From the NCBI GenBank assembly GCA_944323115.1, contig CALURG010000086.1:1-34553 (forward strand): 34,553 nucleotides of DNA, in the 5' to 3' direction. This DNA comes from Candidatus Gastranaerophilales bacterium. Its GTDB lineage: Bacteria; Cyanobacteriota; Vampirovibrionia; Gastranaerophilales; Gastranaerophilaceae. Below are positions 891 through 21,593 of the stretch, piece by piece. The position numbers and the translations under genes were made by a program. The notes beneath the pieces were generated by a model, which had not been told where the DNA came from, searched no databases, and was given only the letters and a program-made list of their open reading frames with translations. How positions within the stretch are numbered: the stretch's first letter is position 1; every line of letters begins with the position of its first letter.

Positions 891-1847
891 ATGACACTAG
901 ATGCAAAAATGATTTCCCGTACAAACGCAGAGGCACTTATTCCTGTTGAAACTTCATCAGAAATTATAAAAAACGTGCCTCAAGCGTCGGCAGCGTTGTC
1001 TTTGTTTAAACAGTTACCGAATATGAGTGCAAAACAAAAAACTCTGCCTGTAACATCTACATTGCCTACAGCATATTTTTTAAACGGCGATACAGACATG
1101 AAGAAAACAACAAATGCAGAATGGGATAAATTGACACTTACAGCGGAAGAAATTGCCGTTATTGTTCCGATTCCGGAAGCTGTTTTTGAAGATGCACAGT
1201 ACAGCATGTGGTCTGAAATTCAGCCTCAAATTGTTGAAGCATTCGGTATTGCAATCGATGAAGCAATCTTTTTCGGCACAAACAAACCTTCCAGCTATCC
1301 TGATGCTATTGTTACCACTGCAATTTCAAAAGGAAACAAAGTAGAACTTGGTACAAATGAAGATATTGCAGGTGATATTATCGGTGAAGGCGGTGTAATG
1401 TCTAAGGTTGAGGACTGCGGCTACAAAGTCACAGGATTTTATGCAGACAGTTCTTTGGAAGCAAAATTCAGAAACCTTAGAGACAAAAACAACCAGCTTC
1501 TTTACACTCCGGGTCTTACATCAGAAATGCCTGTAAGCCTTGTCGGCAGACCGATGAAATATGACGAAACAGGTATTTTTGATACATCAAAAGCATTGCT
1601 CATAGCAGGTGACTTCACAAAAGCAGTGTACTCAATTCGTCAGGATATTACATACAAAGTTCTTGATCAGGCAATTATTCAAAATACTGACGGAACAATC
1701 GCTTACAACCTTGCTCAACAGGATATGGTTGCACTGCGTTGTGTAATGAGACTCGGTATTCAGATTGCAAATCCGGCAAGCAGAAAAGGCGGAGAATCCC
1801 GCTATCCGTTTGCTGTTCTTGTTCCTGAATCATCCACATTATCATAA
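891..1847 (+). CDS. Phage major capsid protein, HK97 fold
   Basis: The 318-residue protein reads as a complete HK97-type capsid subunit. The N-terminal arm (about 1-60) carries PVETSSEIIKNVPQASA and LPVTSTLPTAYFL. The motif EEIAVIVPIPEAVFEDA then leads into the spine helix and P domain, IDEAIFFGTNKP follows, and the chain ends in a beta-rich A domain with ITYKVLDQA and VALRCVMRLGIQIANP. There is no N-terminal protease or long delta domain, which fits a separately encoded scaffold immediately upstream. AAGAAAGG precedes ATG 891 by about nine bases. It would form the icosahedral head. Downstream are a hairpin element and a terminator, so capsid expression can be uncoupled from the connector genes. 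Confidence 0.88.
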   Translation: MTLDAKMISRTNAEALIPVETSSEIIKNVPQASAALSLFKQLPNMSAKQKTLPVTSTLPTAYFLNGDTDMKKTTNAEWDKLTLTAEEIAVIVPIPEAVFEDAQYSMWSEIQPQIVEAFGIAIDEAIFFGTNKPSSYPDAIVTTAISKGNKVELGTNEDIAGDIIGEGGVMSKVEDCGYKVTGFYADSSLEAKFRNLRDKNNQLLYTPGLTSEMPVSLVGRPMKYDETGIFDTSKALLIAGDFTKAVYSIRQDITYKVLDQAIIQNTDGTIAYNLAQQDMVALRCVMRLGIQIANPASRKGGESRYPFAVLVPESSTLS

Positions 1848-1866
1848 AAACAAGACACGCAATAAT

Positions 1867-1941
1867 GCAAAATTTGTCTGAGGCGGCCTCGCTTGTAGGA
1901 GTGTACACGGAGTGCGAGTGACGCCAAGTCTAGCATTTTGC
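1867..1941. repeat. Nested hairpin element after the capsid gene
   Basis: The outer arms GCAAAAT and ATTTTGC enclose further paired blocks: TCTGAGGCG against CGCCAAGTCT (imperfect) and CTCGC against GCGAG, with the palindrome GTGTACAC near the tip. It carries no convincing gene. The block starting TCTGAGGC recurs in a second hairpin at 3948-4007, which has the same nested plan but different outer arms. It may be a structured RNA in the capsid transcript's 3' region or the relic of a mobile hairpin element. Confidence 0.6.
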
Positions 1942-2060
1942 GGAAGTGACCCCATGCACTTGTTGCCTGTGCCGGACTTGTCTGCAATGAATGGACTTGA
2001 TTAATGCACAGGTTCAACAAGTAGTCGGAGTCAGTTGACTATATGAAATATTAGAAATCT

Positions 2061-2092
2061 ACAGGCGGAGAGTTTTTCTCCGTCTGTTTTTT
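2061..2092 (+). terminator. Terminator between capsid and connector genes
   Basis: A 10-bp stem (ACAGGCGGAG / CTCCGTCTGT, one G-T wobble) is followed by a run of six T residues after its G-T end. The next gene's ribosome site AAGGAG starts only about three bases later. It therefore ends or attenuates the capsid transcript just before the connector cluster. Confidence 0.75.
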
Positions 2093-2103
2093 AAGGAGAA
2101 AAA

Positions 2104-2550
2104 ATGACAATAGAACTGTACAAAAATTCATTTGTCACACTCGAGGAAGCTGAAAACTATTTTGATGAACGCTATGATTCAAATGAATGGTTTGAGTTGC
2201 AGGAATCAGACAAAGAAAAATTATTGATTTCTTCAAGCAAAAAGGTAAACTCTTTTGATTTTTCAGGTTCAAAAGCGGATGAAAATCAGCCTATGAATTT
2301 TCCCAGAGATTACGGTACACCTCAGGATATAAAAGATGCGGTTTGTGAAGAAGCCCTGACAATGGTTAAAAAATCAGACAATATTCACATCCAGAACCAA
2401 AATAACAATATTACCTCAATAAGTCTTGGTGCCGGTTCTGTTTCTTATGCAACGGCCAGTTTGAGCGATGAAGCAAAAATAATTCTTTCCCCTATTGCTT
2501 CAAATTTAATAAAAAAATGGACGAAAAAGGGTTATTACATACCTTTTTAA
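2104..2550 (+). CDS. Head-tail connector (DnaT-like/gp6-like family)
   Basis: The 148-residue protein has the pattern of phage head-tail connector proteins often annotated as DnaT-like ssDNA-binding. An N-terminal TLEEAENYFDERYDSNEW helix is followed by a KLLISSSKKVNSFDFSGSK helix, then a central NFPRDYGTPQDIKDAVCEEAL block that resembles the family's PR...P..IK.A..E.AL signature, and a C-terminal helix containing LSPIASNLIKKW. In tailed phages such proteins form the ring below the portal. It is first in a compact run of four genes ending with the tail tube. AAGGAGAAAA precedes ATG 2104. Confidence 0.7.
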   Translation: MTIELYKNSFVTLEEAENYFDERYDSNEWFELQESDKEKLLISSSKKVNSFDFSGSKADENQPMNFPRDYGTPQDIKDAVCEEALTMVKKSDNIHIQNQNNNITSISLGAGSVSYATASLSDEAKIILSPIASNLIKKWTKKGYYIPF

Positions 2551-2571
2551 ACAGATATACAGGAGAAAATC

Positions 2572-2880
2572 ATGGGATATTACACAAATATGCTCAAAGA
2601 TACTGCGGTATTGAAAACCGTAAACGGTTCTGATGCGGATGGCAGACCCAATATTGTTGCACTTGACGAGATAGATTGCAAAATTGAATTTAAAAATGCG
2701 ATTACTACAAATTCTTCAGGAGAAGAAGTTGTCTCAAACGGCAGATTGTATACGGAATCTGTTGTAAAAACAGGTGATATTATCGAGTTGAAAGACAAAG
2801 AGTATAAAGTTGTTAATGTAAACCCGTATTATCCGATAGACAGCTCTTTATTTGTTATCAATGAAGTTTACTTTGCTTAG
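2572..2880 (+). CDS. Probable head closure/stopper protein
   Basis: This is a 102-residue, mainly beta protein. Two sequence blocks suggest a small beta barrel: DEIDCKIEFKNAITTNSSGEE and VVKTGDIIELKDKEYKVVNV. The second looks like the 'given D.I......Y.V..V' ending of phage head-closure proteins (SPP1 gp16 type). The position between the connector and the minor tail/capsid gene agrees. AGGAGAAAATC precedes ATG 2572. The assignment comes mostly from gene order, size and the C-terminal pattern. Confidence 0.55.
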   Translation: MGYYTNMLKDTAVLKTVNGSDADGRPNIVALDEIDCKIEFKNAITTNSSGEEVVSNGRLYTESVVKTGDIIELKDKEYKVVNVNPYYPIDSSLFVINEVYFA

Positions 2881-2900
2881 ACAGTTTGGAGAAAAACAAA

Positions 2901-3272
2901 ATGATTCTGGACGATATAAAGAATTTTCTTTTGCAAAACTCTCTTGTGCAGGAAGATTCAATAAAATATGACTATGATGCATCAAAAGGTGATGAAACAG
3001 TGTTGCTTCATCTTTATGACAATGCACCTTGTGACTTGGCAAGACGCTCCGGAGTGAGAATAACAATAAAATATAGTGATTTAAAATTGGCACGTGATAC
3101 TGCTTTTAAAATACACGATATGCTTTTCCCGGAAGAACTTTTCCAAAAATCCGTAAATATAAACGGAAAAACAATGCACATAAAATTGAATAAAGGACCG
3201 TTCTATCAAGGGAAAGACCAGTCCAAAAGACATAATTACATTCTTGATATAACACTTATTTACAACAGATAG
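2901..3272 (+). CDS. Minor capsid / tail completion protein
   Basis: The 123-residue protein resembles the phage minor capsid 3-like family (tail completion / neck proteins). It begins with MILDDIKNFLLQNSL, followed by an acidic segment, then RRSGVRITIKYSDLKLARDTAF and a C-terminal strand HNYILDITLIYNR. It probably seals the neck between connector and tail tube. ATG 2901 was chosen: the frame's first start, TTG 2886, lies inside the ribosome site TTGGAGAAAA and cannot be the real one. It is nine bases from the next gene and shares its transcript. Confidence 0.6.
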   Translation: MILDDIKNFLLQNSLVQEDSIKYDYDASKGDETVLLHLYDNAPCDLARRSGVRITIKYSDLKLARDTAFKIHDMLFPEELFQKSVNINGKTMHIKLNKGPFYQGKDQSKRHNYILDITLIYNR

Positions 3273-3281
3273 GAGAACAAA

Positions 3282-3881
3282 ATGGCACTAAAAACAGTTA
3301 CAAAACTTTTTGGCGTTGATGATGCAAAATTGTTTCCCGTAACCGAAGATTCCACCGAGAATTTTACTTGCGGTACGGGTATTGATTTGCCGGGCGTCAG
3401 ACAGATTTCCATAACTTATGAGATAGAAGAAAAAGAACTCACAGGCGACGAAAAAGTTTTGGAAGTTTCAAACAAAATTAAATCTATAACTTTTAACATG
3501 GAATACGCAAAACTAAGCCTCGAGGTTTTGGCACAACTTACAGGCGGAACCTACTCAACATCCGGTTCCGGTGATACGGAAAAAGGTGTTTTTAGCTTTG
3601 GCGGAGGTGATTTGCCGAATTATTTCCAACTAAAAGCACAAATTTTAGATACAAGCAATGACGGCGGTGATGTTCATTTTTGTATTTACAAGGCAAAAGC
3701 AACAGCCATACCTATAAACGGTGTGCAAGATGATTTTGCTACGCTGACTTTTGACGGCAAAGGTGTTTATACTGAACACGAATTTGGTGAAGAAGGAAGC
3801 AAACAAACAAAACTTATTGATATTGAAATACATGCGAAAGCACAGTCGTTGAGTGCGACTACTGAACAGAGTGTGGCATAA
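3282..3881 (+). CDS. Phage major tail tube protein
   Basis: The 199-residue protein fits the siphovirus tail tube family. The N-terminus MALKTVTKLFGVDDAKLFPV is followed by IDLPGVRQISITYEIEEKELTGD, a pattern seen in tube subunits with an N-terminal strand pair. A region at about 75-100 contains YAKLSLEVLAQLTGG, and a C-terminal beta sandwich ends with FATLTFDGKGVYT. It would polymerise into the hollow tail. Normally a tail chaperone pair and a long tape-measure gene follow; here a strong hairpin and a gene-free repeat island follow instead. AGGAGAACAAA precedes ATG 3282. Confidence 0.75.
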   Translation: MALKTVTKLFGVDDAKLFPVTEDSTENFTCGTGIDLPGVRQISITYEIEEKELTGDEKVLEVSNKIKSITFNMEYAKLSLEVLAQLTGGTYSTSGSGDTEKGVFSFGGGDLPNYFQLKAQILDTSNDGGDVHFCIYKAKATAIPINGVQDDFATLTFDGKGVYTEHEFGEEGSKQTKLIDIEIHAKAQSLSATTEQSVA

Positions 3882-3896
3882 TACTGCTCCCTAAAT

Positions 3897-3931
3897 AATC
3901 CGAGACGGCTTTAGTTTTGCCGTTTCGGATT
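3897..3931 (+). terminator. Hairpin after the tail-tube gene
   Basis: A 13-bp stem (AATCCGAGACGGC / GCCGTTTCGGATT, one wobble) surrounds a T-rich nine-base loop. It begins 15 bases after the tail-tube stop codon. There is no long T run after it, so termination would be partial; it may instead protect the 3' end of the transcript. Confidence 0.55.
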
Positions 3932-3947
3932 TCGGGTGCACTTTTAC

Positions 3948-4007
3948 TTTTAAATTTTCTGAGGCAGTTTCACTTGTTTTGTGAGCAGCCTGACATAAAA
4001 TTTAAAA
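3948..4007. repeat. Nested hairpin related to the one at 1867
   Basis: The outer arms TTTAAATTTT and AAAATTTAAA enclose CTGAGGC / GCCTGAC and TCAC / GTGA around a TTGTTTT loop. The block TCTGAGGC and the layout (outer AT arms, GGC/GCC middle, inner stem) match the hairpin at 1867-1941, but the outer arms are unrelated in sequence while still pairing. That is what conservation of structure rather than sequence looks like. Confidence 0.6.
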
Positions 4008-4205
4008 CGGGCTTCAGAACTGAGCCATGCTTAAGATTGTCTTATTATTCAAACGGGGGGGTTACATGGGGTGCCCCCTGTTGTAAGTTGGGTTAGAAAC
4101 AGTTGTGTTTTGAGGTGATTTTTACAGCAGCTTGGCACTGAAAAATTACTGAAAAAACACTTCACTGTTTCTTTTGAGAGCGTATGTTTCTCTTTTTTGT
4201 AATAC

Positions 4206-4282
4206 TTTTTTCTCTTGCTTGAGTCGCAGGCGAGATATGTACGGCTCGTACCTCGCCTACATCTCAAGCAAGAAAGAGAAAA
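4206..4282. repeat. Large hairpin (77 bp) in the repeat island
   Basis: The left arm TTTTTCTCTTGCTTGAG pairs, with a small bulge, with CTCAAGCAAGAAAGAGAAAA. Inside lie AGGCGAG / CTCGCCT and GTACG / CGTAC with a three-base GCT loop. The structure is almost continuous, which would make a stable cruciform or RNA stem. Its right arm continues into the first 118-bp repeat. Confidence 0.75.
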
Positions 4283-4296
4283 TAACGCTAACAGAA

Positions 4297-4414
4297 AGAG
4301 ATTTTATAATTCAGAAACGAAAATTTCAGGTCACAAGAACCTGTAAATTTTCATTTCTTCATTTAAAAATCTCTAACTCATTTTACATCAGGGCTCCGCC
4401 CCGAACCCCGTTTA
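4297..4414. repeat. 118-bp direct repeat, copy 1
   Basis: It is identical to 4894-5011 at 115 of 118 positions; the three differences are all transitions. It begins AGAGATTTTATAATTC and ends GAACCCCGTTTA. The unit is itself foldable: AGAGATTTT near the start pairs with AAAAATCTCT, and AATTTCAGGT pairs with ACCTGTAAATTT around CACAAGA. A GC-rich tail (GGGCTCCGCCCC) follows. Confidence 0.9.
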
Positions 4415-4443
4415 AAATTATGCAATAAAATAACTACCCTCGC

Positions 4444-4625
4444 CGACCTTTGTGAAATGAATTACAGAAAGTTAATTAAACAACAATTAGTCTCATCTGT
4501 CTGAGCAGTCTGTAATTATTTTCAATATTTTAGTTATTCTATTTATGATTTTTCAAGACAATATAGACTGCGAGTTATGAGACTAGGGTTTAATTTACTT
4601 TCTGTATGAATGTAACAGTAGGTCG
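4444..4625. repeat. 182-bp imperfect foldback between the two direct repeats
   Basis: Nested matching blocks occur in order on both sides: CGACCT (4444) with AGGTCG (4620), ACAGAAAG (4464) with CTTTCTGT (4598), TAGTCTCAT (4487) with ATGAGACTA (4577), and GCAGTCT (4505) with AGACTGC (4565). The centre, about 53 bases, is AT rich. The collinear order of four separate pairing blocks makes chance unlikely. No protein frame is present. It is a candidate structured RNA or an old element with inverted ends. Confidence 0.65.
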
Positions 4626-4734
4626 GGTTTGCCTTCTTTTGCCGCTGAGTTGTGACAAAGCGTGCAAAATGGCTTCACGACTTCACTATAATATTACATT
4701 TATTTCTTTTGTCTTTTAATAGTGAACTTGGGCT

Positions 4735-4765
4735 CCACCCGTTCTTTACGATAAAGAATGGGTGG
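4735..4765. repeat. 14-bp hairpin with 3-base loop
   Basis: CCACCCGTTCTTTA pairs with TAAAGAATGGGTGG (one G-T wobble) around CGA. It is preceded by GGGCT. It is not followed by a T run, so it is not an ordinary terminator. Confidence 0.7.
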
Positions 4766-4815
4766 AAATTAAAGTATAATTTTTGTTTTTAAAACCTAAA
4801 TCTTTATTTTTCCAT

Positions 4816-4864
4816 GTTACTTTCTTTCTCTTTGAATTGCGTGTGCAAAGAGAAAGAAAGTAAC
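4816..4864. repeat. 19-bp perfect hairpin
   Basis: GTTACTTTCTTTCTCTTTG pairs perfectly with CAAAGAGAAAGAAAGTAAC around an 11-base loop (4835-4845). It stands directly before the right-hand 25-bp inverted repeat and the second direct repeat, as the large hairpin at 4206 does before the first. The two 'hairpin plus 118-bp tail' units are thus parallel in layout. Confidence 0.8.
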
Positions 4865-4893
4865 TCAAAGAAAGAGAAACATACGCTCTCAAA

Positions 4894-5011
4894 AGAGATT
4901 TTATAATTCAGAAACAAAAATTTCAGGTCACAAGAACCTGTAAATTTTCATTTCTTCATTTAAAAATCTCTAACCCATTTCACATCAGGGCTCCGCCCCG
5001 AACCCCGTTTA
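4894..5011. repeat. 118-bp direct repeat, copy 2
   Basis: This is the second copy of the unit at 4297-4414, 597 bp downstream and in the same orientation. Its last 38 bases (4973-5010) match, in reverse complement, a relic at 21,518-21,555 at 31 of 38 positions. It is followed by a separate block ending TTGACTATATG (5074-5092) that also occurs at 2027-2045. Confidence 0.9.
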
Positions 5012-5257
5012 TTATTATCTTGCAGGCGTTTCCTCATTTCATTCGGTCAGCCCCGCACGGAATCCGGGCAGCCGGAGCCAATTGACTATATGTAAAAATT
5101 ACGAAAGGAGGCGGTGGCCTTCCCCAAAAATAAAAAAATACAAAAACGGAAAATACATTAATTATTAAATACCAAATTTAATTAATAATAAGTTCAGAAA
5201 AGATTTACCGCAAAAACGTGAACAGTTTTTTGTACAACAATATTTGGACGGAATTTT

Positions 5258-6055
5258 ATGAAAAAGATTTTTAAAAACCTAAGTATTTTTTTATTGATTA
5301 TTGCAGTCTGGGCCATTTTTATTGAGCCTAACATGCTTATTGTTAAGCACTATAAAATTCAAAATGAAAATCTAAAAGGTTTAAAAATAGTTTATGCAAC
5401 GGATTTTCATTTTAAGAATAATGAATTTAAAAAATTAAAAAAGGTTATAAAAAAAATAAATAGACAAGACGCCGATATTGTTCTGTTTGGCGGAGATTTT
5501 GTAAACGGGCAGATTTATGAAAAAACTCTTCATCCGGGTGTCATTGCAAAATTACTTGGAGATGTAAATTCAAAATATGGTATTTATTCGGTTTTGGGCA
5601 ATCATGATTGCTGGCTGGACGAAAACAAGGTTAAAGATTACCTTGTAAAATACGGAATTAATGTTTTGTCTAATCAAAACAAAGTCATAAACATTGCTGA
5701 CAACAGAAAAATTTATATAGCCGGAACAGAAGATTTGTATACAGGTAAACCCGACATAAAAAAAACTTTGACCAATACTTCGTCCCCTGTGATTTTGCTT
5801 TCTCATTCCCCTGATATTTTCCCTGAAGTACCTGATTTTGTAGACTTGACTTTAGCCGGACATACACACGGCGGTCAGGTAAACATTCCTTTTGTCGGTC
5901 CGGTTTTGGTTCCGTCTGAATACGGCCAAAAGTATGCGGCAGGGTTAATCTCTGAGGACAAAAAACAGATGATAGTTTCCAGAGGTATAGGTACCAGCAT
6001 AATTCCGATAAGATTTAATTGTTTTCCTGAAATTGTTGTAATAACTTTTTATTAA
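5258..6055 (+). CDS. Membrane-anchored metallophosphoesterase (YkuE/YaeI-like)
   Basis: The 265-residue protein has an N-terminal membrane anchor (about 5-23), followed by a calcineurin-like phosphoesterase domain that should face outside the cytoplasmic membrane. Visible metal motifs in order are YATDFHF (D-x-H, ~49), FGGDFVN (~77), VLGNHDCW (~114), LLSHSPD (~181) and the final AGHTHGGQV (~200). In YkuE/YaeI relatives the substrate is UDP-2,3-diacylglucosamine-like or another phospho-lipid; the substrate here cannot be read from sequence. It is not a usual phage structural gene and sits alone between the repeat island and the terminase block, so it is either a cargo gene or a host gene now flanked by phage pieces. 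The ribosome site before ATG 5258 is weak (GGACGGAA). Confidence 0.85.
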   Translation: MKKIFKNLSIFLLIIAVWAIFIEPNMLIVKHYKIQNENLKGLKIVYATDFHFKNNEFKKLKKVIKKINRQDADIVLFGGDFVNGQIYEKTLHPGVIAKLLGDVNSKYGIYSVLGNHDCWLDENKVKDYLVKYGINVLSNQNKVINIADNRKIYIAGTEDLYTGKPDIKKTLTNTSSPVILLSHSPDIFPEVPDFVDLTLAGHTHGGQVNIPFVGPVLVPSEYGQKYAAGLISEDKKQMIVSRGIGTSIIPIRFNCFPEIVVITFY

Positions 6056-6258
6056 CAAAAAGATACTGTCCGGGAAAAATTCGTGATAAGGAATACTCTG
6101 CCGAACAAAAGCAGCCGGCGGCAGCAGCGACGCTAAATTAGAATTTGTCCGACTGTCTTCAACAGAAAATTTTTATATTCTTGTTATTAAAATTTTTACA
6201 ATTTTCACTTTTTGTGCCGGAGCAACGGGCATGAATTGTATTTTTGTTGTCTTGGGAT

Positions 6259-6585
6259 TTAAAGAAAGAAAGCATTTTTAAAAACCGATAAGAAAACAAG
6301 CACAAAACTTACAGAAAAAGATAAGCATAAGGTTAAAACAATATCATCAAAATTGAAAAAACTATTTTGCGGTATAAACAAAGTCAAAATAGACAGAATA
6401 GGGATTATTATCATTGCATAAAAAAACATTGCAAATACATAAAATATTTCGGACAAATCAGAAACATCATTATAGAAAATATACGTATTTACAATAGGAA
6501 ATAATAATGCAAGTAAAAAAATAAACAGATATTTATAACTCTTTTGTAAGAAATATTTTTCATATTTTAAGTATTTCTCAAAATT
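6259..6585 (-). pseudogene. Remnant of a small membrane protein gene
   Basis: On the minus strand an open frame runs from the stop near 6588 down to 6259. It encodes a charged start (KYEKYFLQKSYKY) and then three or four hydrophobic segments, with the aromatic-rich composition of a membrane protein (for example FIFLLALLFPIV, MFFYAMIIIPILSIL and LCLSFSVSFVLVFLSVF). There is no ATG in frame and no ribosome site; the only starts are weak internal TTG codons. I read it as a truncated or decayed gene. The rest of 6056-6635 shows no gene; 6060-6150 contains GC-rich fragments like other intergenic elements. Confidence 0.35.
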
Positions 6586-6635
6586 TTAGAAAAAAAATAT
6601 TATATTTTCCGTTTGTGGATTTAGAAAGGATAATT

Positions 6636-7553
6636 ATGTCAAAAAATAAATACATGAGTCTTTTTGAAACACTCAGTGAAGAAGAACAAAGATATATAAT
6701 TGAAAAAGCAATGGAATATCAACAATTATTAAATATTGATAACAGCGGAGACGGCTGGAATGATGCAACGGACGGTTTCCGGCATGCTTGGGGTTCAGCT
6801 TACTTATCGCTAAAGTACAATGATTTGATTTCTCATATTGCTACCAGCGGACACGAACTTTTGGAAAGCTCATACCAGCCAAAAGAAGAAAAACAGATGG
6901 ATGAATGGAACAACAAAATAGGCAGACAGATTGCCAAACAAATTAATAATGAATATGAAAATATTGATGAAAATATTAACTGGTCAAGCATAGAGGATTT
7001 AATAGCTCACAAAACTCTTGAGAAAATAAATAACAATGAAATAGCTACTTCTCCGTTGGATTCCGGCAATAATGTGTTAAAAGGTCAAATAGAATACAAC
7101 AAACCCTTGTCATTAAAAGATCGTCTTTTGCAAGCCAGACAAGAAAAACTTGCTCGCTACACTCAAAGATTAGCCGAATCACCTGAAAAAATTGCCGAAC
7201 AAGAAGCAAAACATGTTACGTTAGAAGAACTCAAAGCTCCTCAGGAAGCCAGAAAAAAACATGTGATGGATGTAATAAACGGCACAGTTGAATTTGATGA
7301 AGATGCAGACTATTCGAACTATGAAAATAAAAAATCGAAAAATAACCAGATATTTACAAAAGAAGATATAGAAGAAATGTCTGACGAGGAAAGGGAAACA
7401 AACAAAGAGGCCATAATATATCAGGAACAAACTATCGGAATTCCGACAAGAAAACAAGCACAAAAAGTTACACAAAACGGCGGAATGATACATGTTTCGA
7501 CCTATACCAGAGCAGACGGAACAAAAGTCAGAAGCTACTACAGGTCCAGATAA
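6636..7553 (+). CDS. Phage-associated DUF6973-like protein with YTRADG tail
   Basis: The protein has 305 residues. Residues 40-100 carry a recognisable pattern: DATDGFRHAWGSAYL (H50), SGHE (H73, E74) and MDEWNNKIGRQIA (89-100). This 'D-x-FRHA ... HE ... MD-x-NN-x-x-GR' arrangement is that of the DUF6973-type domains known at the ends of secreted toxins, whose function is not established. A charged, helical middle (about 105-250) follows. The last 24 residues, GGMIHVSTYTRADGTKVRSYYRSR, form a short beta-hairpin motif found as a C-terminal tag in many bacterial and phage proteins. I chose ATG 6636 (GAAAGGA upstream) over GTG 6615, which overlaps that site. The gene precedes terminase, so it may be a virion-carried effector or a minor head protein; neither is proven. 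Confidence 0.6.
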   Translation: MSKNKYMSLFETLSEEEQRYIIEKAMEYQQLLNIDNSGDGWNDATDGFRHAWGSAYLSLKYNDLISHIATSGHELLESSYQPKEEKQMDEWNNKIGRQIAKQINNEYENIDENINWSSIEDLIAHKTLEKINNNEIATSPLDSGNNVLKGQIEYNKPLSLKDRLLQARQEKLARYTQRLAESPEKIAEQEAKHVTLEELKAPQEARKKHVMDVINGTVEFDEDADYSNYENKKSKNNQIFTKEDIEEMSDEERETNKEAIIYQEQTIGIPTRKQAQKVTQNGGMIHVSTYTRADGTKVRSYYRSR

Positions 7554-7578
7554 AGATTTTGATTCAAGGGAATAAAAA

Positions 7579-7977
7579 ATGACAAAAAGAATCAGCAAGA
7601 CAAAACTCAAAAAACTTGAGCAAATTTGTCTTGAACAAATCAGCCAAAATAATATAACTTTTTTAGACGAAATTTTTACCTTTGTGGAAATTATGCCGTC
7701 AGAGTTTTTTGAATATAAATTAAACGAGTCGGAGGCAATTAAAGACGCAATAGAAATAAACAGAGCAAAGCTCAAAAGGGATTTGCGTTTTAAATGGTTT
7801 GAAAGTACAAATGCAACTTTAAATGCTGCATTGTACAAGCTTGTTTGCACGGAAGAAGAGAAACGTGCACTTTCTTCTTCCGCAGCAAAAAACAGCCCGA
7901 ACAATGATATCTGTACGCAGGAAGAATACCTAAAAAGTCTAAAAGAAATGAGTGAGGGATTGGAAAATGCCGATTGA
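7579..7977 (+). CDS. Terminase small subunit
   Basis: The 132-residue, charged and helical protein overlaps the large terminase start by 11 bases, the standard small-large pairing. The N-terminal half (KTKLKKLEQICLEQISQNN) looks like a DNA-binding helix pair. The middle (MPSEFFEYKLNESEAIKDAI ... AKLKRDLRFKWFES) has the pattern of small-terminase proteins that recognise the packaging site and recruit the large subunit. It is rich in K and E, with a Ser/Asn-rich linker near 95-112. No recognisable homologue motif settles the exact family; position carries much of the weight. Confidence 0.65.
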   Translation: MTKRISKTKLKKLEQICLEQISQNNITFLDEIFTFVEIMPSEFFEYKLNESEAIKDAIEINRAKLKRDLRFKWFESTNATLNAALYKLVCTEEEKRALSSSAAKNSPNNDICTQEEYLKSLKEMSEGLENAD

Positions 7978-9262
7978 TTGGACAAAATCAAAATACAGCA
8001 AAAAACATAGATTGTTTTTGAGCAAAAAACCCGAAAACATGAAGTTTTTTACCCTGTGTGACGGTGCTGTCCGCTCAGCAAAAACCCTTTCAATTATTTA
8101 CAAAATTCCTCAAATTTTTGACTTTGTCGGGAATGAATACTTAAAAGTTTTTTCCGGTTATTCAAAAAACACGGTCAGAAACAATGTGCTTGTCGAGCTT
8201 TTACCGTATTTGAAAAATTATCACGGAGCACAGGTAAAATACAACTCAGCAAGCGGAGAACTGGATATAAAACTCTGGGGCAAGTTGTACAACTGTCTTG
8301 TTGTAGGCGGCGGAAAGTCAGACAGCGACTCAAATATTCAAGGTGCGACTTGGGATTTTTGGTATGCAAATGAACTTCCAAAACATCACTATGGATTTTA
8401 CAATATGGCACTTTCAAGATTAACACCCGAAAATGCCCGAGCCATAGCGGACAGCAACCCGGAAAGTTCAAACCATTGGCTGTACAGAGAAAGAATAAAA
8501 CCCTACCTTGAAAATGACCCGAAAATAAGGAGTATTTTTGACTATTGGCATTTTACTATGGAAGACAATGCCAATTTGTCAAAATCTTTTATTGAAAACC
8601 AGAAAAAATTGTACAGCGGAGTATTTGAAGCACGGAAAATCAAGGGTTTGTGGGTGGTTGCACAGGGGCTTGTCTACGATACATTTTCTGCGGAAAAACA
8701 CACCTGTTCTCACAAGGAAATATTAGAAAAAATTCAAAACAACGAGTTTATAGAATATTTTCTGGGTCTTGACTGGGGCTGGATTCACCCCCTTTGCTGC
8801 GGATTATACGGCGTGACAAAAAACGGAAAATATTACAAAATAGACGAACTTTACGGCTCAAAAATCAATGATGACAAAGTTATAAAATGGATTTTGGACA
8901 AGCAGAAAGAGTATTCCAGATATTTTCGTTTTATAAACTGTGACAACGCCAGGCCGGAACAAAATCATAAACTCAGACAATCTTTAAACGGAATAATTGT
9001 ACATGAAAAGAAACCTAAAGTAATAGACAGTATAGGAATTATGCGTTCTATCATAAACTATGACAGGCTTATAGTTAACAAAGACAGGTGCAAAAATACT
9101 CTTCGGGAATTCGGTTTGTACAGGTATCCTGATAGTGAAAATGATTTCAATAACATTACGGATTACGATATGCCGCTTAAAGAAAATGATGACACTATGG
9201 ACGAAACACGTTATGCGTTGAATTTTTATGAAACGCAGTACGGATACAGGTTTAGAAAATAA
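7967..9262 (+). CDS. Terminase large subunit (PBSX-like)
   Basis: The 431-residue DNA-packaging motor has an N-terminal ATPase and a C-terminal nuclease. The Walker A region is GAVRSAKT (33-40); most relatives have G where this has A38. Walker B and the catalytic Glu are in TWDFWYANELPK. A coupling motif lies near ADSNPESSNHW. The RNase H-like nuclease shows LGLDWGW (first Asp), NCDNARPE and a late acidic DDTMDETRY. ATG 7967 was chosen (GAGGG eight bases upstream); GTG 7952 is in frame but overlaps that site. It normally threads DNA through a portal, yet no portal gene follows; the next gene is a tail protein, 75 bases on. Confidence 0.9.
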   Translation: MPIDWTKSKYSKKHRLFLSKKPENMKFFTLCDGAVRSAKTLSIIYKIPQIFDFVGNEYLKVFSGYSKNTVRNNVLVELLPYLKNYHGAQVKYNSASGELDIKLWGKLYNCLVVGGGKSDSDSNIQGATWDFWYANELPKHHYGFYNMALSRLTPENARAIADSNPESSNHWLYRERIKPYLENDPKIRSIFDYWHFTMEDNANLSKSFIENQKKLYSGVFEARKIKGLWVVAQGLVYDTFSAEKHTCSHKEILEKIQNNEFIEYFLGLDWGWIHPLCCGLYGVTKNGKYYKIDELYGSKINDDKVIKWILDKQKEYSRYFRFINCDNARPEQNHKLRQSLNGIIVHEKKPKVIDSIGIMRSIINYDRLIVNKDRCKNTLREFGLYRYPDSENDFNNITDYDMPLKENDDTMDETRYALNFYETQYGYRFRK

Positions 9263-9292
9263 TTTAAAAAAACAAAAATAAAAATCTAAAAT

Positions 9293-9316
9293 ATCCCTCA
9301 TAAAGGGGTTATTTTG
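9293..9316 (+). terminator. Weak hairpin after terminase
   Basis: CCCT and AGGGG pair around CATAA shortly after the terminase stop, followed by TTATTTT. The stem is short, so termination would be partial. It falls exactly at the point where terminase gives way to tail genes, a suspicious junction in this prophage. Confidence 0.35.
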
Positions 9317-9337
9317 CCGTATTTAAAAGGAGGAAAA

Positions 9338-9715
9338 ATGGTAAAAAGTGAAAGCATTAAAGAGCTTTTGAAGCAAGTAGGCCGTCCTTATGAAATGTTT
9401 AATAAAGACGGAACTTATCAGGGATGTTTTTATCCTGTACAGTTTTTATATCCTGATAAACCAAGATATAAGTTAAGATCAAAAGACGATGACAAAAACT
9501 ATTTTTACGGGCTTGAAAAAATAAAAGAACATTGTACGGAAATTTCTCCTAATGATCTTAAAGAAGGAGACATAATTGCTACAAGGTTTAAAGATGAACT
9601 GCATGTTGCTGTTTATCTTGAATTTGGAAAAATAATACACGTGTTTAAAGATCATACTTTACAAATAGGGAGATTGAAATTGTTTAAACAATTTCAATCT
9701 TTTAGGGTGAACTAA
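9338..9715 (+). CDS. Tail-associated NlpC/P60-like protein
   Basis: The 125-residue protein matches a compact NlpC/P60-like hydrolase as carried near phage tail tips (lambda K-like role). The candidate nucleophile is C30 in YQGCFYPVQF. The histidines are H89 in KDELHVAVYLE and H101 in KIIHVF, and KEGDII (75-80) is the usual strand before the histidine. It may cut peptide crosslinks during DNA entry. The overall similarity is weak, so activity is inferred. ATG 9338 follows AAAAGGAGG; the earlier TTG 9314 lies upstream of that site. Its stop codon overlaps the ATG of the tail-tip gene (TAATG), so the two are translationally coupled. Confidence 0.65.
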   Translation: MVKSESIKELLKQVGRPYEMFNKDGTYQGCFYPVQFLYPDKPRYKLRSKDDDKNYFYGLEKIKEHCTEISPNDLKEGDIIATRFKDELHVAVYLEFGKIIHVFKDHTLQIGRLKLFKQFQSFRVN

Positions 9716-12138
9716 TGGCAGTACTTACAGCAATAGGAGCAGCATTAGCAACAGTATCTACAGTTTTGGGGTCTACAGCTTTCTCCATAGGTGCAATGAG
9801 CATCACATGGGGAATGATAGCACAGGCGATTATTTATGGTGGAATGGCACTTTCTGCCACTCTTGCAACAAGAAAACCTGATTTTACTTTGCAATCACCA
9901 ACATATCAAGGAAAACTTCAAACTCAAACAGACCAGAATTTGCCTGTACCTCTCTTATACGGGACCGTAAAACTTGCAGGTAACAGAATTTGGCAGGATG
10001 AAAACGGAATAACAACCGTAAAAAGAATAGTTGCTTTTGCGGAAGGTGAAATATGTGAATATTCGGATATCAGATTAAACGATATACCAATAGAAGAAAT
10101 TGCAGGCATAACCGTAAACAGATACTACGGTACAAGCACTCAGGAAGTTGATCCGATAGTCGGCGGTGCAAGTAACGCAGAAAGATGTGAAAAAGTAGGC
10201 TCTCTCAAAAACATTGCATATTTGGCAATAACTGTTCCAAGAAGTGCAAAAATAGATATAAATTATAATCTTACTGCTGTTGTAAAAGGCAGAAAAATAA
10301 GAGTTTACAACACAAAATACGAATACGAAATAAAATATTCCGAAAATCCGGCTTGGGTTATGTTTGATTTTTTGACTAGCTACAACGGATTAGGACTTTG
10401 TATAAACAACTACGGTGAAATATCGGAAACTCTTATAGAAGAATTGTTTGATTTAGACAGTTTCTTGGAATCGGCAGCATATTGTGATGAAATAGTACAA
10501 ACTGTTGAAAAAGACGAAAACGGACAGGATGTTACAAAACAAACTCCCCGCTTTACATTTAATATGATTTTTGATGCCCAAACATCTGCAAGATCTCTTA
10601 TTGATGAAATTTACCGTTCTTGCAGAGGCGGGTTGTTTATGAAAGACGGCCGTTTGCAGTTTAAAATTGACAAAGCTGAGCCATTGAGCAAAGTTTTTAA
10701 TGAAAATGATATCATAAAAGGTTCCGAAACTTTCCAGACAATACCGAAAGAAGAGCATTATGATATACTAAAATGTTGCTATGTATCTCCCTTGCATGAG
10801 TGGCAAAAGGTAGAAGCGACGGCTGAATTGCCGGAATATACGGATGGAATACCTATAGAACATACCGTAAATATGTATTCTGTTACAAACTTTAGCCAGG
10901 CATCAAGACTTGCCTGGTATTATGTCAACTCCAAAAGGATACAGCCTTATTTTGGCAGTTTCAAGACCGACTACAAAGGTTACGATTTGGAAGTAGGCGA
11001 TGTAATTGCAATCAACAGTTTGCTTATGGGGCTTGAAAATTATTATGTAAAAGTAACCAGTGTTGTCGATGACGGCTCCGGTATCTTCACCATAAACTGG
11101 AGGCACTATGATGAAGAACTTTACGATGACAAACTCGGAAGCAAAGAGCCGACAGTTATTGTAAGTTCTATAGCCGACATTGTTAGATTTCCTGATGACG
11201 TAAAGAACTTTAATGTTGTTCAGTCGGAAAATCAGTTTAATTTTGTATGGGAACAAAACACAAACAAAAATGACACATACGAAATCAGAATGGGTGAAAG
11301 CTGGGAAGACAGCACGGTAATCAGAAGCGGCTTAACAGGCAATAAATATTCTACTGAAATTCCGACAAACGGACTTTTTAAATTTTGGATAAAAGCTTTT
11401 AATCGGTACAATTATTCAGAAAATGCCACTTTGGATGTAATCAATGTTGACAGCATTCCACAGATGAATGAAATTGTTAAATTTGATGTCTTGTCCAAGA
11501 TTTTGGGTACATATGATGAAAATTTAAAAATTTATCGCCATACTATAAAACTTTTAGAAAATAATGTTCTTTGGCATGATGAAGAAACCTTCTGGAACAA
11601 CAGAGGCTACTACCAAAATGCAGGCAGATGGGGTGCTGAGGTGGGTAATCAAGGGGTTTACCTCAGCCAGGTGTTTGACATAGGTGCGGTACTTGAAAGC
11701 ATTGTGTCTTTTGACTACAGAACATCCAGCGGTGATGAACAAAACAGCGTCACGATTGAATGGGCTTATTCTGATGACGGAGAAACCTTCTGTGAATGGA
11801 AATTGGTAAATAACGGCAGATATACTTTCAGATATTGCAAGTTTAGAGTCACTCTCAATGCGATAAATAATGTCCAAACGGTGCTAACAAAATTTGCTGT
11901 AGCCGTCGATGTACCTGACAAACAACAAAATTTGGAACTTGAGATATCTGATTCTCAAGGTTTGACGGTAGAATACAATTTTGTTAAACCGCCGTCACTT
12001 GTTGCTACCGTGAATGACAACAATGATGCGTATGTTGTTGTTACAGAAAAAACAAATACATATGCGGTTTTAAAAGCATATACAAATTCAGGTGAACTTA
12101 CCACCTGCAAGCTGAGTTTACTGTTGAAAGGTTACTAA
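9715..12138 (+). CDS. Tail tip / host-specificity protein J-like
   Basis: The 807-residue protein has an N-terminal Ala/Gly-rich hydrophobic segment (about 1-50). The motif NLPVPLLYGTVKLAGNRIW (~80-98), a J/TipJ hallmark, follows. A large beta-rich tip domain runs to about residue 480 and includes ARSLIDEIYRSCRGGLFMKDGRLQFK around 290-315. A fibronectin-III-like segment lies at about 500-575 (KNFNVVQSENQFNFVWEQNT ... FKFWIKAFNRYNYSE). A C-terminal beta region from about 590 may bind the host or hold the fibre. J-type proteins form the baseplate hub that recognises the host and opens the tail. The start overlaps the preceding stop; 13 bases separate it from the fibre gene. Confidence 0.85.
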   Translation: MAVLTAIGAALATVSTVLGSTAFSIGAMSITWGMIAQAIIYGGMALSATLATRKPDFTLQSPTYQGKLQTQTDQNLPVPLLYGTVKLAGNRIWQDENGITTVKRIVAFAEGEICEYSDIRLNDIPIEEIAGITVNRYYGTSTQEVDPIVGGASNAERCEKVGSLKNIAYLAITVPRSAKIDINYNLTAVVKGRKIRVYNTKYEYEIKYSENPAWVMFDFLTSYNGLGLCINNYGEISETLIEELFDLDSFLESAAYCDEIVQTVEKDENGQDVTKQTPRFTFNMIFDAQTSARSLIDEIYRSCRGGLFMKDGRLQFKIDKAEPLSKVFNENDIIKGSETFQTIPKEEHYDILKCCYVSPLHEWQKVEATAELPEYTDGIPIEHTVNMYSVTNFSQASRLAWYYVNSKRIQPYFGSFKTDYKGYDLEVGDVIAINSLLMGLENYYVKVTSVVDDGSGIFTINWRHYDEELYDDKLGSKEPTVIVSSIADIVRFPDDVKNFNVVQSENQFNFVWEQNTNKNDTYEIRMGESWEDSTVIRSGLTGNKYSTEIPTNGLFKFWIKAFNRYNYSENATLDVINVDSIPQMNEIVKFDVLSKILGTYDENLKIYRHTIKLLENNVLWHDEETFWNNRGYYQNAGRWGAEVGNQGVYLSQVFDIGAVLESIVSFDYRTSSGDEQNSVTIEWAYSDDGETFCEWKLVNNGRYTFRYCKFRVTLNAINNVQTVLTKFAVAVDVPDKQQNLELEISDSQGLTVEYNFVKPPSLVATVNDNNDAYVVVTEKTNTYAVLKAYTNSGELTTCKLSLLLKGY

Positions 12139-12151
12139 AGAAAGGGGTCAT

Positions 12152-13351
12152 ATGATAGAGGATAAAATATATACCTGGACAGACAATCCGACTGTATCAG
12201 GTGTTTCAATTTGTGATACTGATGTGTTGAACGAATGTTTAATGCACTTAAAATACAACAATACCGGTGACGGAATGCCGTTGTTTACGATATTGGACTT
12301 TGACCATATTCTTGATGGAGAAGATGCTGTGGGCTGGGCTGTTCAGGGAAGTTTGATTACGGAAACCTATCCTGATGCTGTATCAGAAATACAAACAGAC
12401 TATGCAAATGCCCAAGAAACTACTCATAGAGGAATAACGTGCAAAAAATCAGCAGACGGCAAATTTATTGCAGATATTTCACAAAAAACAGCAATCGATG
12501 AATTGTACGATTCAAGCGGTTTTAGTGATTTTTATATTCTTGACAGTGTAAATGAGCAGTTCTACCTGCCGAAAGAAAATTTAGAACGTTCAAGCAGGTA
12601 TATTATTGAAACATATTCAAACGGAAGCAGCTGGTACAATCTCTACTCCGACGGCTGGCTTGAGCAGGGAGGATATGTTGCTTCTACAAGTAATACACAG
12701 ACTATAGCATTGTATAAAGATTATAAAAATACTGATTACAATATACTTGTTACACCTGCGGCTCCGAATACTCCAAGTCACTACGGAGTAGGAGTGTCTA
12801 CACTTAACAAAAATGTTTCATCTTTCCAAATATGGAACAGCGGTTATAACTATTATCCATATATATATTGGGAATCTTCCGGCATGTCGAACCTTCAAAA
12901 TGTTGAAGCAAATGAAAACAATATGCCTGCTTACAGATATTACAGAGTCGGAAATACACTCAACAATGAAACTGATATAGATGTAGCCAATGTTTTAAAT
13001 GATTTGCAACTAAAAGCGAATACCGACTTGGGTAATGTGACGGAGAACGCAAAGTTGTTGGCCGTGAGCTGGTCTCTCCCTGATTACACGGCAGGAATTA
13101 GTGTCGCAACAGGCAATTTTGTACCTGTAACGGATGGTGTTTTAAATTATTATTCCACTTCTCAGTATGACCAGTCGTATATCGAAGTTAAATTAGGCGA
13201 AACAATACTATTAAAATCCGTAGCCGGAGGCTATGGAATGGGTCTTGTTACAGGGCAAATGCTTCTGAACAAAGGAGAAACATATACTGTTGCTATTGTG
13301 GGGAATATAGTCGGAAATTTCTATCCGTTGAAAGGAAGTCAAAATGCTTAA
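12152..13351 (+). CDS. Tail fibre / receptor-binding protein
   Basis: The 399-residue protein is rich in N, Y, T, S and G, without membrane segments. The middle contains YIIETYSNGSSWYNLYSDGW LEQGG (about 148-174), a motif typical of gut-phage fibres. A beta-rich stretch with repeated aromatic residues (SSFQIWNSGYNYYPYIYW) follows, and the C-terminal part may be a receptor-binding head. The N-terminus (about 1-60) is the likely attachment part for the tip protein. AAAGGGG precedes ATG 12,152. It overlaps the next gene by 8 bases. Host range would depend on this protein. Confidence 0.75.
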   Translation: MIEDKIYTWTDNPTVSGVSICDTDVLNECLMHLKYNNTGDGMPLFTILDFDHILDGEDAVGWAVQGSLITETYPDAVSEIQTDYANAQETTHRGITCKKSADGKFIADISQKTAIDELYDSSGFSDFYILDSVNEQFYLPKENLERSSRYIIETYSNGSSWYNLYSDGWLEQGGYVASTSNTQTIALYKDYKNTDYNILVTPAAPNTPSHYGVGVSTLNKNVSSFQIWNSGYNYYPYIYWESSGMSNLQNVEANENNMPAYRYYRVGNTLNNETDIDVANVLNDLQLKANTDLGNVTENAKLLAVSWSLPDYTAGISVATGNFVPVTDGVLNYYSTSQYDQSYIEVKLGETILLKSVAGGYGMGLVTGQMLLNKGETYTVAIVGNIVGNFYPLKGSQNA

Positions 13352-13907
13352 ATATGCAAAAGTAATAAATGAACAAACAGGACTGTGCAATGTCGGTCTT
13401 GGCTCAAATATAAAATTTTATAAATCAATAGGTATGTCCCGTAAGAATGTTCAACAATCAAACATTGACGGGCAATGGTATTTATCAAACAAATGCCCGA
13501 TGAAAACAGAAGCAGAACTTTTGCAAGAAGCAAAGGAATCAAAATACTTTGAGGCTAATCAAAAAGCAAAAGAATACCTCGAATCCGGAAATGCACTCTA
13601 TGAGCTTACACAAACACGCCATATTGAAGCAACAGACGGTAACATCGGAAAACTTACTGCTTATGCACTGGGCTATGTGACAGGTCTTTATAAACCAACG
13701 GATTCCGTGTATTGGAACACAAAAGAAGATGAGACAATAGCACTTTCACAAGAAGAACTCGGAGAAATTCTGTCAGGTCTCGGACAGGTTCAGGCAAATG
13801 TTTGGAATATACAATATCCTCAATATCTTGCCCAAATAGAATCTGCAAAAACAGCACAGGAGATAAACTCAATTGAGGTTGAATATTCGGATGTTTTAAT
13901 GTCCTAA
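13344..13907 (+). CDS. DUF4376-type fibre-associated protein
   Basis: The 187-residue protein has a C-terminal half with the DUF4376 look: HIEATDGNIGKLTAYALGYV, then WNTKEDETIALSQEELGEI and LGQVQANVWNIQYPQYLAQI. This domain is common in genes next to phage tail fibres and may act in fibre assembly or as part of the fibre, but its function is not established. The N-terminus (about 1-50) contains a cysteine and Asn/Gly-rich strand pattern. It overlaps the fibre gene by 8 bases, so translation is probably coupled; an SD-like GAAAGGAAG lies inside the end of the fibre gene. Confidence 0.75.
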   Translation: MLKYAKVINEQTGLCNVGLGSNIKFYKSIGMSRKNVQQSNIDGQWYLSNKCPMKTEAELLQEAKESKYFEANQKAKEYLESGNALYELTQTRHIEATDGNIGKLTAYALGYVTGLYKPTDSVYWNTKEDETIALSQEELGEILSGLGQVQANVWNIQYPQYLAQIESAKTAQEINSIEVEYSDVLMS

Positions 13908-13961
13908 GACACTTTGAATGTTACTGCTTATAAACAAACACAAAACAGATAGGAGAAAGTT

Positions 13962-14165
13962 ATGAAATGGTATGAAGTAATTTTTAAATACCTTAGCCAG
14001 TCAAGCACTTACAAAGGATTGTTCGGGCTGCTTGCCGCTTTCGGTGTAGTTGTCAAACCAGAATTGTCAGATGCAATTATTGCCTGTGCTATAGGTGTTA
14101 TAGGTCTTATTGACGTAATAATTGACGAGACGGTTGAAAAAGACACAAAAAAGGCAGAATCGTAA
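13962..14165 (+). CDS. Small membrane protein, probable holin
   Basis: The 67-residue protein has two hydrophobic stretches, about residues 17-30 (LFGLLAAFGVVVK) and 36-53 (DAIIACAIGVIGLIDVII), and a charged tail DETVEKDTKKAES. Size, topology and place near the endolysin agree with a holin that times membrane opening. AGGAGAAAG precedes ATG 13,962. The stop overlaps the next start (TAATG). No family signature separates a holin from another phage membrane protein. Confidence 0.6.
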   Translation: MKWYEVIFKYLSQSSTYKGLFGLLAAFGVVVKPELSDAIIACAIGVIGLIDVIIDETVEKDTKKAES

Positions 14166-14404
14166 TGTACTCCGCCTTAGTAACAGCATTGAGCAATATG
14201 CTTTCAAACTTTTTTAAATTAAAGACAACACAAATAGAAAATCAGTCGGAAATTAATATCATTGAAGATAAAAAAGATTACAAAAAAGCTACGGATATAG
14301 CGGAAAAAATTATAGAAATAGCAAAAAAATACAAAAAAGAAATGACATTCAAGGACAGACTGCAATTGTTTCGTCTGTGTGAAAAATTTCAAAAATATAA
14401 TTAG
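14165..14404 (+). CDS. Small coiled-coil phage protein, unknown
   Basis: I do not recognise this 79-residue protein. The N-terminus MYSALVTALSNMLSNFFKLKTT is weakly amphipathic; the rest is a basic, lysine-rich helix (DKKDYKKATDIAEKIIEIAKKYKKE) that could form a coiled coil. Its ATG overlaps the preceding stop codon, so it is co-translated with the putative holin. It could be an antiholin or a lysis accessory, which is only suggested by its place. Confidence 0.55.
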   Translation: MYSALVTALSNMLSNFFKLKTTQIENQSEINIIEDKKDYKKATDIAEKIIEIAKKYKKEMTFKDRLQLFRLCEKFQKYN

Positions 14405-14412
14405 GAGGGAAA

Positions 14413-14661
14413 ATGACATTTTTTGTTGAATATGCTCCCATGATTATTGTTATCATGGGCTTTTTTATTGCGTACAAAATATTTGTCACACCTCAACAGC
14501 TTGTGGAAATGAAATCGTCACTGATTGCTTATATAGCAGATCACTATGTTTCTGACAAGACATACCGGGAAAACCACAGAAACCTTCAAGAGCAACTTTC
14601 TTTAATCCATCAGGATATTAATGACGTAAAGAACTTACTTATACAAAAAGGCGGTGATTAA
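14413..14661 (+). CDS. Single-pass membrane protein of the lysis cassette
   Basis: The 82-residue protein has an N-terminal membrane segment (about 6-24, YAPMIIVIMGFFIAYKIFV) and then a helical, charged tail ending NLLIQKGGD, likely a coiled coil (about 55-80). The layout resembles a spanin-like or second-holin protein. AGGAGGG precedes ATG 14,413. The stop codon is 14,659-14,661, one base short of the endolysin ATG, so the two are probably translated together. Confidence 0.6.
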   Translation: MTFFVEYAPMIIVIMGFFIAYKIFVTPQQLVEMKSSLIAYIADHYVSDKTYRENHRNLQEQLSLIHQDINDVKNLLIQKGGD

Positions 14662-14662
14662 A

Positions 14663-21345: not shown

Positions 21346-21593
21346 CAAACAAACTCATTGTAGTGAAACAATTTGCCTGAATTACCCCCCGCCTGACGAA
21401 AGAAAGTGTGAATAGAAATTTAATCACTTATTCGGCAGAATTCTAAGCTAGCTTTACTCCTAGTCTGACAAGGCAGAGGAGCAAAAAGACAGAGCCATGT
21501 TTAAGACAGTTTTATACAAACGGGATTCAGGACGAAACCCTGATGTGAGACGGGTATTTTAAGAGGCAGCCAAAGTTAGTTGACTGTACGAGA
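21346..21593. repeat. Dispersed hairpin element in a convergent intergenic gap
   Basis: This gap between converging genes has no gene. It carries blocks also seen in the prophage repeat island. AGCCATGTTTAAGACAG...CAAACGGG (21,493-21,524) matches 4023-4057. The GC-rich block 21,518-21,555 matches the reverse complement of 4973-5010 at 31 of 38 bases, all seven differences being transitions. TAGTTGACTGTACG (21,577-21,590) resembles 2031-2045 and 5077-5092. It may serve as a bidirectional terminator or be the relic of a mobile element. Confidence 0.65.

Follow-up and report, generated by a model that had tools for sequence, protein, structure and literature searches.

Transposition of the IS200/IS605 kind leaves no target duplication and involves hairpins at the element ends and a short target step. 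Two of the repeats described here, the K and I elements, are alike in being duplication-free, in having hairpin ends and in using a short target step.

BIMEs and REP elements (GTAG and CGTC types) are described, in the accounts cited here, as high-copy intergenic mosaics of small palindromes (PMC3733652, PMC8266576), the REPs themselves measuring 20–40 bp (PMC3733652). CGTC REPs also occur without a dedicated transposase, and many CGTC-1 copies of Neisseria are found within large intergenic mosaics that contain other repeats as well (PMC3733652). The locus analyzed here is of this general kind, an intergenic mosaic in which small, different repeats cluster, but its build is unfamiliar and it has no known mover: K consists of two different abutting stem-loops of 92–98 bp, I is 52–58 bp long, and neither is GTAG-tagged at its borders. 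Intrastrand triplex motifs are also known in bacteria, where they have been linked with instability; those named ITxF and TMECO have a pyrimidine arm, a purine arm and a second purine arm, and are present in many copies in some genomes (PMC4666352). The H module shares this layout but differs in being A/T-rich, in its loop (11 nt in the window and about 8–11 nt in most units, against the 1–6 nt allowed in the search described there, PMC4666352), and in being joined to another module, T, and receiving both I and K. ERIC and RU MITEs are described as non-autonomous, intergenic foldbacks of 100–200 bp (PMC2229807, PMC2759123), and so resemble the U module; in the lineage of the window, terminal repeats and a target duplication are at most putative for U, inverted ends being seen on the U of one relative (G021). 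No account of the repeats of this lineage was recognized among open-licence papers, to which the literature search was confined.

The best overall explanation for the locus, at a probability of about 0.7, is a nest of small, non-autonomous, self-folding repeats, of which K and I were perhaps moved as single strands.

Layout of the Repeat Locus

The window, meaning the whole stretch of DNA that was analyzed, is 34,553 nt long, and its repeats are piled up in a gap between prophage genes, with phage genes on both sides. The upstream neighbors encode capsid, head-tail adaptor and major tail proteins, while those downstream encode a metallophosphoesterase, a DUF6973 protein, a terminase-like protein and tail proteins. 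The wider region, 891–15118, carries a prophage or GTA-like gene set in which the terminase-like gene is found between the tail genes and an NlpC/P60 plus Phage-tail_3 pair. Only two ORFs longer than 60 aa (84 and 72 aa) lie inside the repeat stretch, neither with a Pfam match at E ≤ 1, in agreement with the original prediction of a gene-free region surrounded by phage genes.

That prediction, made from the DNA letters, had described two tandem units, each a long hairpin followed by a 118-bp tail, with a foldback between them and a perfect 25-bp inverted repeat bounding the whole. The individual structures were all recovered. The tails (4297 and 4894) share 115 of their 118 positions, and the inverted repeat (4171–4195 and 4871–4895) is perfect, reaching 26 bp with one outward base. 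The second hairpin (4816–4864) has a perfect 19-bp stem and an 11-nt loop, and the first (4206–4282) lies inside a long hairpin, the fold of 4171–4300 having a z-score of −7.48, with 0 of 200 shuffles as good. The foldback between the units spans 4443–4626, or 184 bp instead of the 182 bp first given (z-score −5.96; 0 of 200 shuffles as good). Across 3882–5257, the longest direct repeat is 58 bp and the longest inverted repeat 26, compared to at most 15 and 21, respectively, in 200 dinucleotide shuffles. The stretch is confirmed as a real arrangement of repeats beyond chance.

The grouping of these structures into units fared less well. Both hairpins and both tails are real, but the hairpins are not alike, the first holding two joined 3' halves of I. 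Nor do the 25-bp repeats bound a single unit: they are the 3' ends of two opposite H copies, what lies between them is found elsewhere as separate pieces and in different orders, and no target duplication flanks the repeats. The view that the stretch is unlike a standard insertion sequence was upheld, and copies were found elsewhere. The parts of the stretch are as follows (position, strand, description).

4075..4170, minus: inverted T-like module that accompanies the inverted H copy and has the arms AGAAACAGT/ACTGTTTCT; 4075–4196 matches 2507–2628 of locus L094 at 79%, and similar arms occur in L192
4171..4215, minus: 3' part of an inverted H module, holding the left 25-bp repeat; 4170–4216 pairs with 4848–4896 at 90%, 25 bp of this being perfect
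4213..4269, no strand: two 3' halves of I joined head to head, forming most of the first hairpin; the forward half, from 4234, ends CTCAAGC^AAGAAAG at 4263–4269, and the left half, as read by eye, is the reverse complement of a GCGACTCAAGC end
4270..4296, plus: remnant of an H purine arm, 78% similar to 4868–4894
4297..4409, plus: T module, copy 1, a foldback whose tip varies, together with a GGGCTCCGCCC hairpin; matched by model R2 at 4297–4405, E 2e-21
4410..4442, plus: T-U linker, shared with contig C37, of which 2908–3423 matches 4266–4767 at 91%
4443..4626, plus: U module, a structured foldback, CCGACC..GGTCGG; matched by model R1, E 1.6e-48, with covariation
4631..4726, plus: K element, 96 bp, two abutting stem-loops, with GGGTTT^CTTGGG as the insertion site; recognized by its borders, its structure and an empty counterpart in locus L085 of genome G020
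4727..4770, plus: S hairpin, TTGGGCTCCACCCGTTCTTT..AAAGAATGGGTGGAA; self-inverted match at 4734–4766, with copies adjoining U in many loci
4803..4893, plus: H module, with pyrimidine arm 4816–4834, loop, purine arm 4846–4864 and mirror purine arm 4867–4879
4871–4895: right 25-bp repeat, at the 3' end of this H module
4894..5006, plus: T module, copy 2; matched by model R2 at 4894–5002, E 1.3e-20
5007..5066, plus: tail shared with contigs C27 and C76 of the same draft, which match up to 5066 at 87%

Elsewhere in the window, a short and weak match to the end of T is found at 21518–21555 (82% over 38 bases, minus strand).

Distribution and Modular Composition

DNA matches to the stretch were found in 33 of the 59 genomes searched, distributed as 22 of 23 in the genus, 4 of 13 in the rest of the family, 7 of 22 in the rest of the order and 0 of 1 in the rest of the class. 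Neither a single-genome occurrence nor an artefact, the two outcomes that would have gone against the original prediction, fits with parts that match 22 of 23 genus genomes, one per species. In the draft genome that carries the window, pieces match seven other contigs, with longer blocks in C37, C81, C27 and C76 and short ones in C3, C77 and C79, and in five of the seven the match lies near a contig end. Repeats tend to lie at contig ends.

The ends of the matching blocks tend to recur at the same internal points, and on this basis the stretch was split into the modules T, U, K, S, H and I. The comparison indicates that it is a mosaic of the separable repeat families H, T, U, K and S, together with I remnants. 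The modules are nested: one H carries two I copies (L087), I lies in H loops, and K is found in U/S, T and H. In G014, the same prophage genes flank the gap (79% over 557 and 831 columns) but the modules there are U, S and I, so that the same prophage gap holds different repeats in different species; the G014 gap also lacks the window genes at 5258–7553, including those for the metallophosphoesterase and the DUF6973 protein. Three other genomes (G015, G016 and G013) have modules adjoining genes whose counterparts in the window have none. Two loci with the same neighboring gene, L132 in G007 and L148 in G019, carry an H-T unit in opposite orientations, which suggests an inversion or an independent insertion. 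The viral_contigs set gave 0 exact matches to one H pattern and 0 to the I pattern.

The H Module and the 25-bp Repeats

H consists of a pyrimidine arm, a loop, a complementary purine arm, about six bases and a second purine arm. In a fixed register, 14 of 22 distinct units have a second purine arm that mirrors the first exactly, and none of the 22 has a direct copy in its place; when arms were re-dealt among units in 5000 trials, the mean was 2.9 exact mirrors and the maximum 8. The fixed register was adopted because a test allowing two-base shifts left mirror and direct repeats inseparable (0.958 against 0.959). Among the eight imperfect units, two have a third arm cut by K (L005, L046), one has a substitution (L004), four have a third arm that is shifted, longer or shorter (L036, L093 and two in L170), and the last is a false unit running across the I remnant of the window. 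The 14 exact units have the pyrimidine, purine, purine arrangement, third arm mirroring second, of an intrastrand triplex motif, and the third arm mirrors the stem as a purine-type intrastrand triplex would need; such a triplex is predicted for H. Covariation of the mirror would be sequence evidence of a DNA triplex kept over evolution. One exact stem form of H, the only one covered by the phylum-wide count, is present in 19 of 292 phylum genomes, all 19 within the family of the window and spread over six genera, and the reversed pattern is present in 0.

Each 25-bp repeat makes up the final 25 bases of one of the two opposite H copies. The forward H (4803–4893) leads into T, and the reversed H (4171–4215) leads out into the inverted T-like module. 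No mobile unit bounded by the 25-bp repeats is visible.

The K and I Elements

Over the loci examined, K was found in 43 distinct copies of 92–98 bp, preceded by TT in 42 of them and followed by C in 33, A in 7 and T in 3. Their surroundings are very different, with copies between U and S, at the end of T and inside H. The consensus fold is two back-to-back stem-loops (base 1 to 43 and base 44 to the last), the stems spanning the whole of K. Among 26 of the 28 distinct sequences, which formed the sample for covariation, 99.2% of cells are paired, 7 of 20 pairs covary compared to 3.4 in shuffles, and there are 37 both-side changes compared to 10, a level reached by 0 of 500 shuffles; the number of pair types was reached by 73 of 500 and is not in excess. 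A pattern search detected K in 16 of 23 genus genomes, with 100 matches in G019 and none for the reversed-pattern control.

Empty counterparts of K were sought by joining its flanks. Joined 60-bp flanks gave counterparts for 19 of 44 copies (7 gap-free within four columns of the junction) and joined 120-bp flanks for 21 of 42 (9 gap-free in this sense); the remaining counterparts show small gaps, and several counterparts are repeat copies at loci other than the filled ones. In the DNA searched, 25 of 44 K copies had none. The K of the window has its empty form in G020 (L085), and the copy on C76 of the same draft has K-free forms on C27 and C76. Between the same gene neighbors, G012 is filled by K and G017 is empty, with one base different at the junction; a one-base difference from the empty form is seen at many K junctions.

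The I element is 52–58 bp long and runs from TACC to CTCAAGC. Full copies are followed by AAG in 16 of 24 cases and AAA in 4, and preceded by CA in 17. As read by eye, most lie in H, inserted where either purine arm starts, and L087 has one in each. Its fold has both-side changes in 3 of 13 pairs. Spanning matches from the joining of flanks were mostly filled copies, and with these filtered out empty counterparts (60-bp flanks) remained for 7 of 16 copies, five of them gap-free near the junction and two at 99% over 120 bp, with none for the other 9 in the DNA searched. In the window, I is represented by the two head-to-head 3' halves that make the first hairpin long. A near-exact I pattern, outside which this remnant falls, was present in 6 of 191 family genomes (5 of 10 genus genomes drawn, plus G034), compared to 0 for the control.

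The filled and empty pairs of K and I have no target duplication, and neither element has inverted ends. Comparison of the copies shows that K and I occupy many surroundings at preferred short sites, exist in filled and empty forms, and leave no target duplication.

The T, U and S Modules

T is the 118-bp tail of the original prediction, a foldback with a tip that differs among copies plus a small, terminator-like GC hairpin that forms its end. Both-side changes are seen in 4 of 33 pairs among 35 distinct aligned copies, which is little covariation. Model R2 detected T in 16 of 59 genomes, all within the genus (16 of 23, with none in seven genus genomes), and gave up to 48 matches per genome (G012 and G016), numbers that exceed the count of places as some copies are read on both strands.

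Model R1 detected U in 24 of the 59 genomes searched, 21 of them among the 23 of the genus and 3 among 13 of other genera in the family; G021 gave 30 matches at 29 places and G034 gave 8. Wrong-strand matches of this model (26–38 bits), for the most part backward readings of the same copies, were left out of the survey of neighbors; a few may sit in the genome counts. In the set of 29 U places from which an alignment was drawn, left flanks vary and S is the usual right neighbor. The 21 of these that are 170–195 bp long were aligned, and 98.3% of 860 cells were found to be paired, compared to 33–40% in slid versions. Cells with both-side changes number 110 compared to 40 in shuffles, with 0 of 500 as high, while pairs with such changes number 14 compared to 11.9, and 25 of 500 shuffles did as well; pair types show no excess over shuffles. 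Compensatory changes preserve the stems of both U and K. The covariation in the modules could also have other causes, namely RNA function or the repair of near-palindromes. Exact empty sites for U, T, H and S were not present in this material, so that the case for their own mobility rests on dispersal.

Further arrangements were seen in relatives. Loci L276 and L277 of G021 hold foldbacks of the U type, extended at their ends (TACAGATAATT..AATTATCTGTA), and others of a second type (GCAGTGAAATTT..AAATTTCACTGC), nested within outer TGATAATATTTATTATGTAA repeats in the fashion of onion shells. Locus L275 (G034, contig C8) has, in 3.3 kb, four U-like copies that share one strand; those read are separated by other repeats.

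The covariation in U and K would also be expected if the modules were structured RNAs or mRNA 3' ends kept for a host function, with spread being secondary. The GC hairpin that terminates T is in keeping with such a role, and the 32 G-U cells in U compared to 3 A-C cells hint at one strand, but 24 of the 32 fall in two pairs. Several observations argue against it, and we regard it as improbable. There is no fixed relation to neighbors: of 54 picked U copies, 39 had both neighboring genes called, and among these 23 lie between codirectional genes (14 on the same strand and 9 on the opposite), 10 between convergent and 6 between divergent genes. Rfam gave no match at the gathering threshold in the window or in four related loci, the 31 sub-gathering matches at a permissive threshold being mostly to eukaryotic microRNA families on hairpins. 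Moreover, matches swing from 0 to 30 between species, and the modules interrupt one another.

An equally improbable alternative is that the repeats are conventional MITEs, which carry terminal inverted repeats and are mobilized as double strands by a DDE transposase. The paired TGATAATATTTATTATGTAA repeats are outer inverted repeats of the type expected, and the TACAGATAATT..AATTATCTGTA ends of U in G021 would fit a TA duplication. Against this, K and I have neither inverted ends nor a target duplication, and in the window the 25-bp repeats belong to H.

Search for a Mobilizing Enzyme

If K and I are instead part of a nest of non-autonomous repeats, as favored here, the enzyme could be supplied in trans. 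RAYT-type Y1 genes matched in 13 of 36 genomes, 8 of the 23 in the genus, and 0 matches were found in the draft that holds the window. The four loci read among the 19 matches are all flanked by GTAG REPs, and near them one I-like copy, about 80 bp away, was the only module present. In L095–L098, where RAYT genes are flanked in this way, a REP also lies inside the transposase reading frame in at least L095.

Enzymes of the RAYT class are expected to insert DNA without duplication. With RAYT genes and GTAG REPs present in the genus, the repeats could be REP elements moved by a resident RAYT, and we consider this slightly less probable again than the two preceding alternatives. No GTAG-tagged palindrome marks the borders of K or I, and 15 of the 23 genus genomes, all drafts and including that of the window, gave no match; three genomes without a Y1 match (G006, G010 and G021) yet have many K and U copies.

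Integron attC sites resemble the modules in being folded single-strand sites with bulges, and the four U-like copies in a row in G034 might be taken for an array. This is very unlikely to be the explanation, as no match in 36 genomes comes up to the integron-integrase cut-off, all 36 share their sub-threshold matches with all 14 control genomes, and the G034 copies that were read alternate with other repeats. GIY-YIG nucleases were considered as movers and rejected; they matched in 36 of 36 genomes (UvrC included), and 0 of seven module queries were found in the 30 loci fetched. Taken together, the searches for Y1/RAYT, integron integrase and GIY-YIG genes revealed none tied to K, I or any other module. 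K and I differ from IS200/IS605 elements in that no transposase with K- or I-like ends was found and no autonomous partner with such ends was noticed in the loci read.

Assembly artefact, for which the draft state (100 contigs) and the several copies at contig ends of the same genome might be cited, is just as implausible as attC sites, the same modules and junctions recurring in the genomes of other species.

One genome has a further K-related repeat. In G019 (e.g., L355–L394), a 172-bp, chain-of-hairpins element with a K-like core accounts for about 93 of the 100 K-pattern matches. The 37 distinct copies that were read have a mean identity of 95.5% and unrelated, A/T-rich flanks, and 38 joined flanks gave no empty site in the DNA searched. 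This K-bearing element is, by all appearances, a recent spread.

Discussion

In the explanation favored here, the nest would have been built by the insertion of repeats into repeats within a gap between prophage genes. A mosaic of mobile hairpin repeats is a highly probable reading of the stretch. How K and I move is a more tentative matter, and a single-stranded route is given a little under even odds. It is suggested by the lack of target duplication, the feet of stems at the K borders and the folds that are kept. By this route, K and I would move as folded single strands, and an enzyme acting in trans, of the HUH type or another that works on single strands, would cut and join them where their stem-loops have their feet. 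The H hairpins would be favored landing sites, probably because their purine arms hold the target steps. No gain to the host from the nest can be demonstrated from these data.

The movement of the smallest bacterial repeats is an open question, as many have no attached enzyme and it is rare for filled and empty sites to be clean. K and I offer dozens of defined borders, matched empty sites, kept folds and the burst in G019, which make the question testable with oligonucleotides. A bolder proposal, and a rather unlikely one at present, is that K and I are the first members to be known of a class of hairpin cassettes that lack a transposase, leave no duplication and are pasted as folded single strands into other hairpins, with the triplex-forming H as a well-suited landing pad. 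If this were true, one bacterial genus would carry a layered community of mobile structures that parasitize each other.
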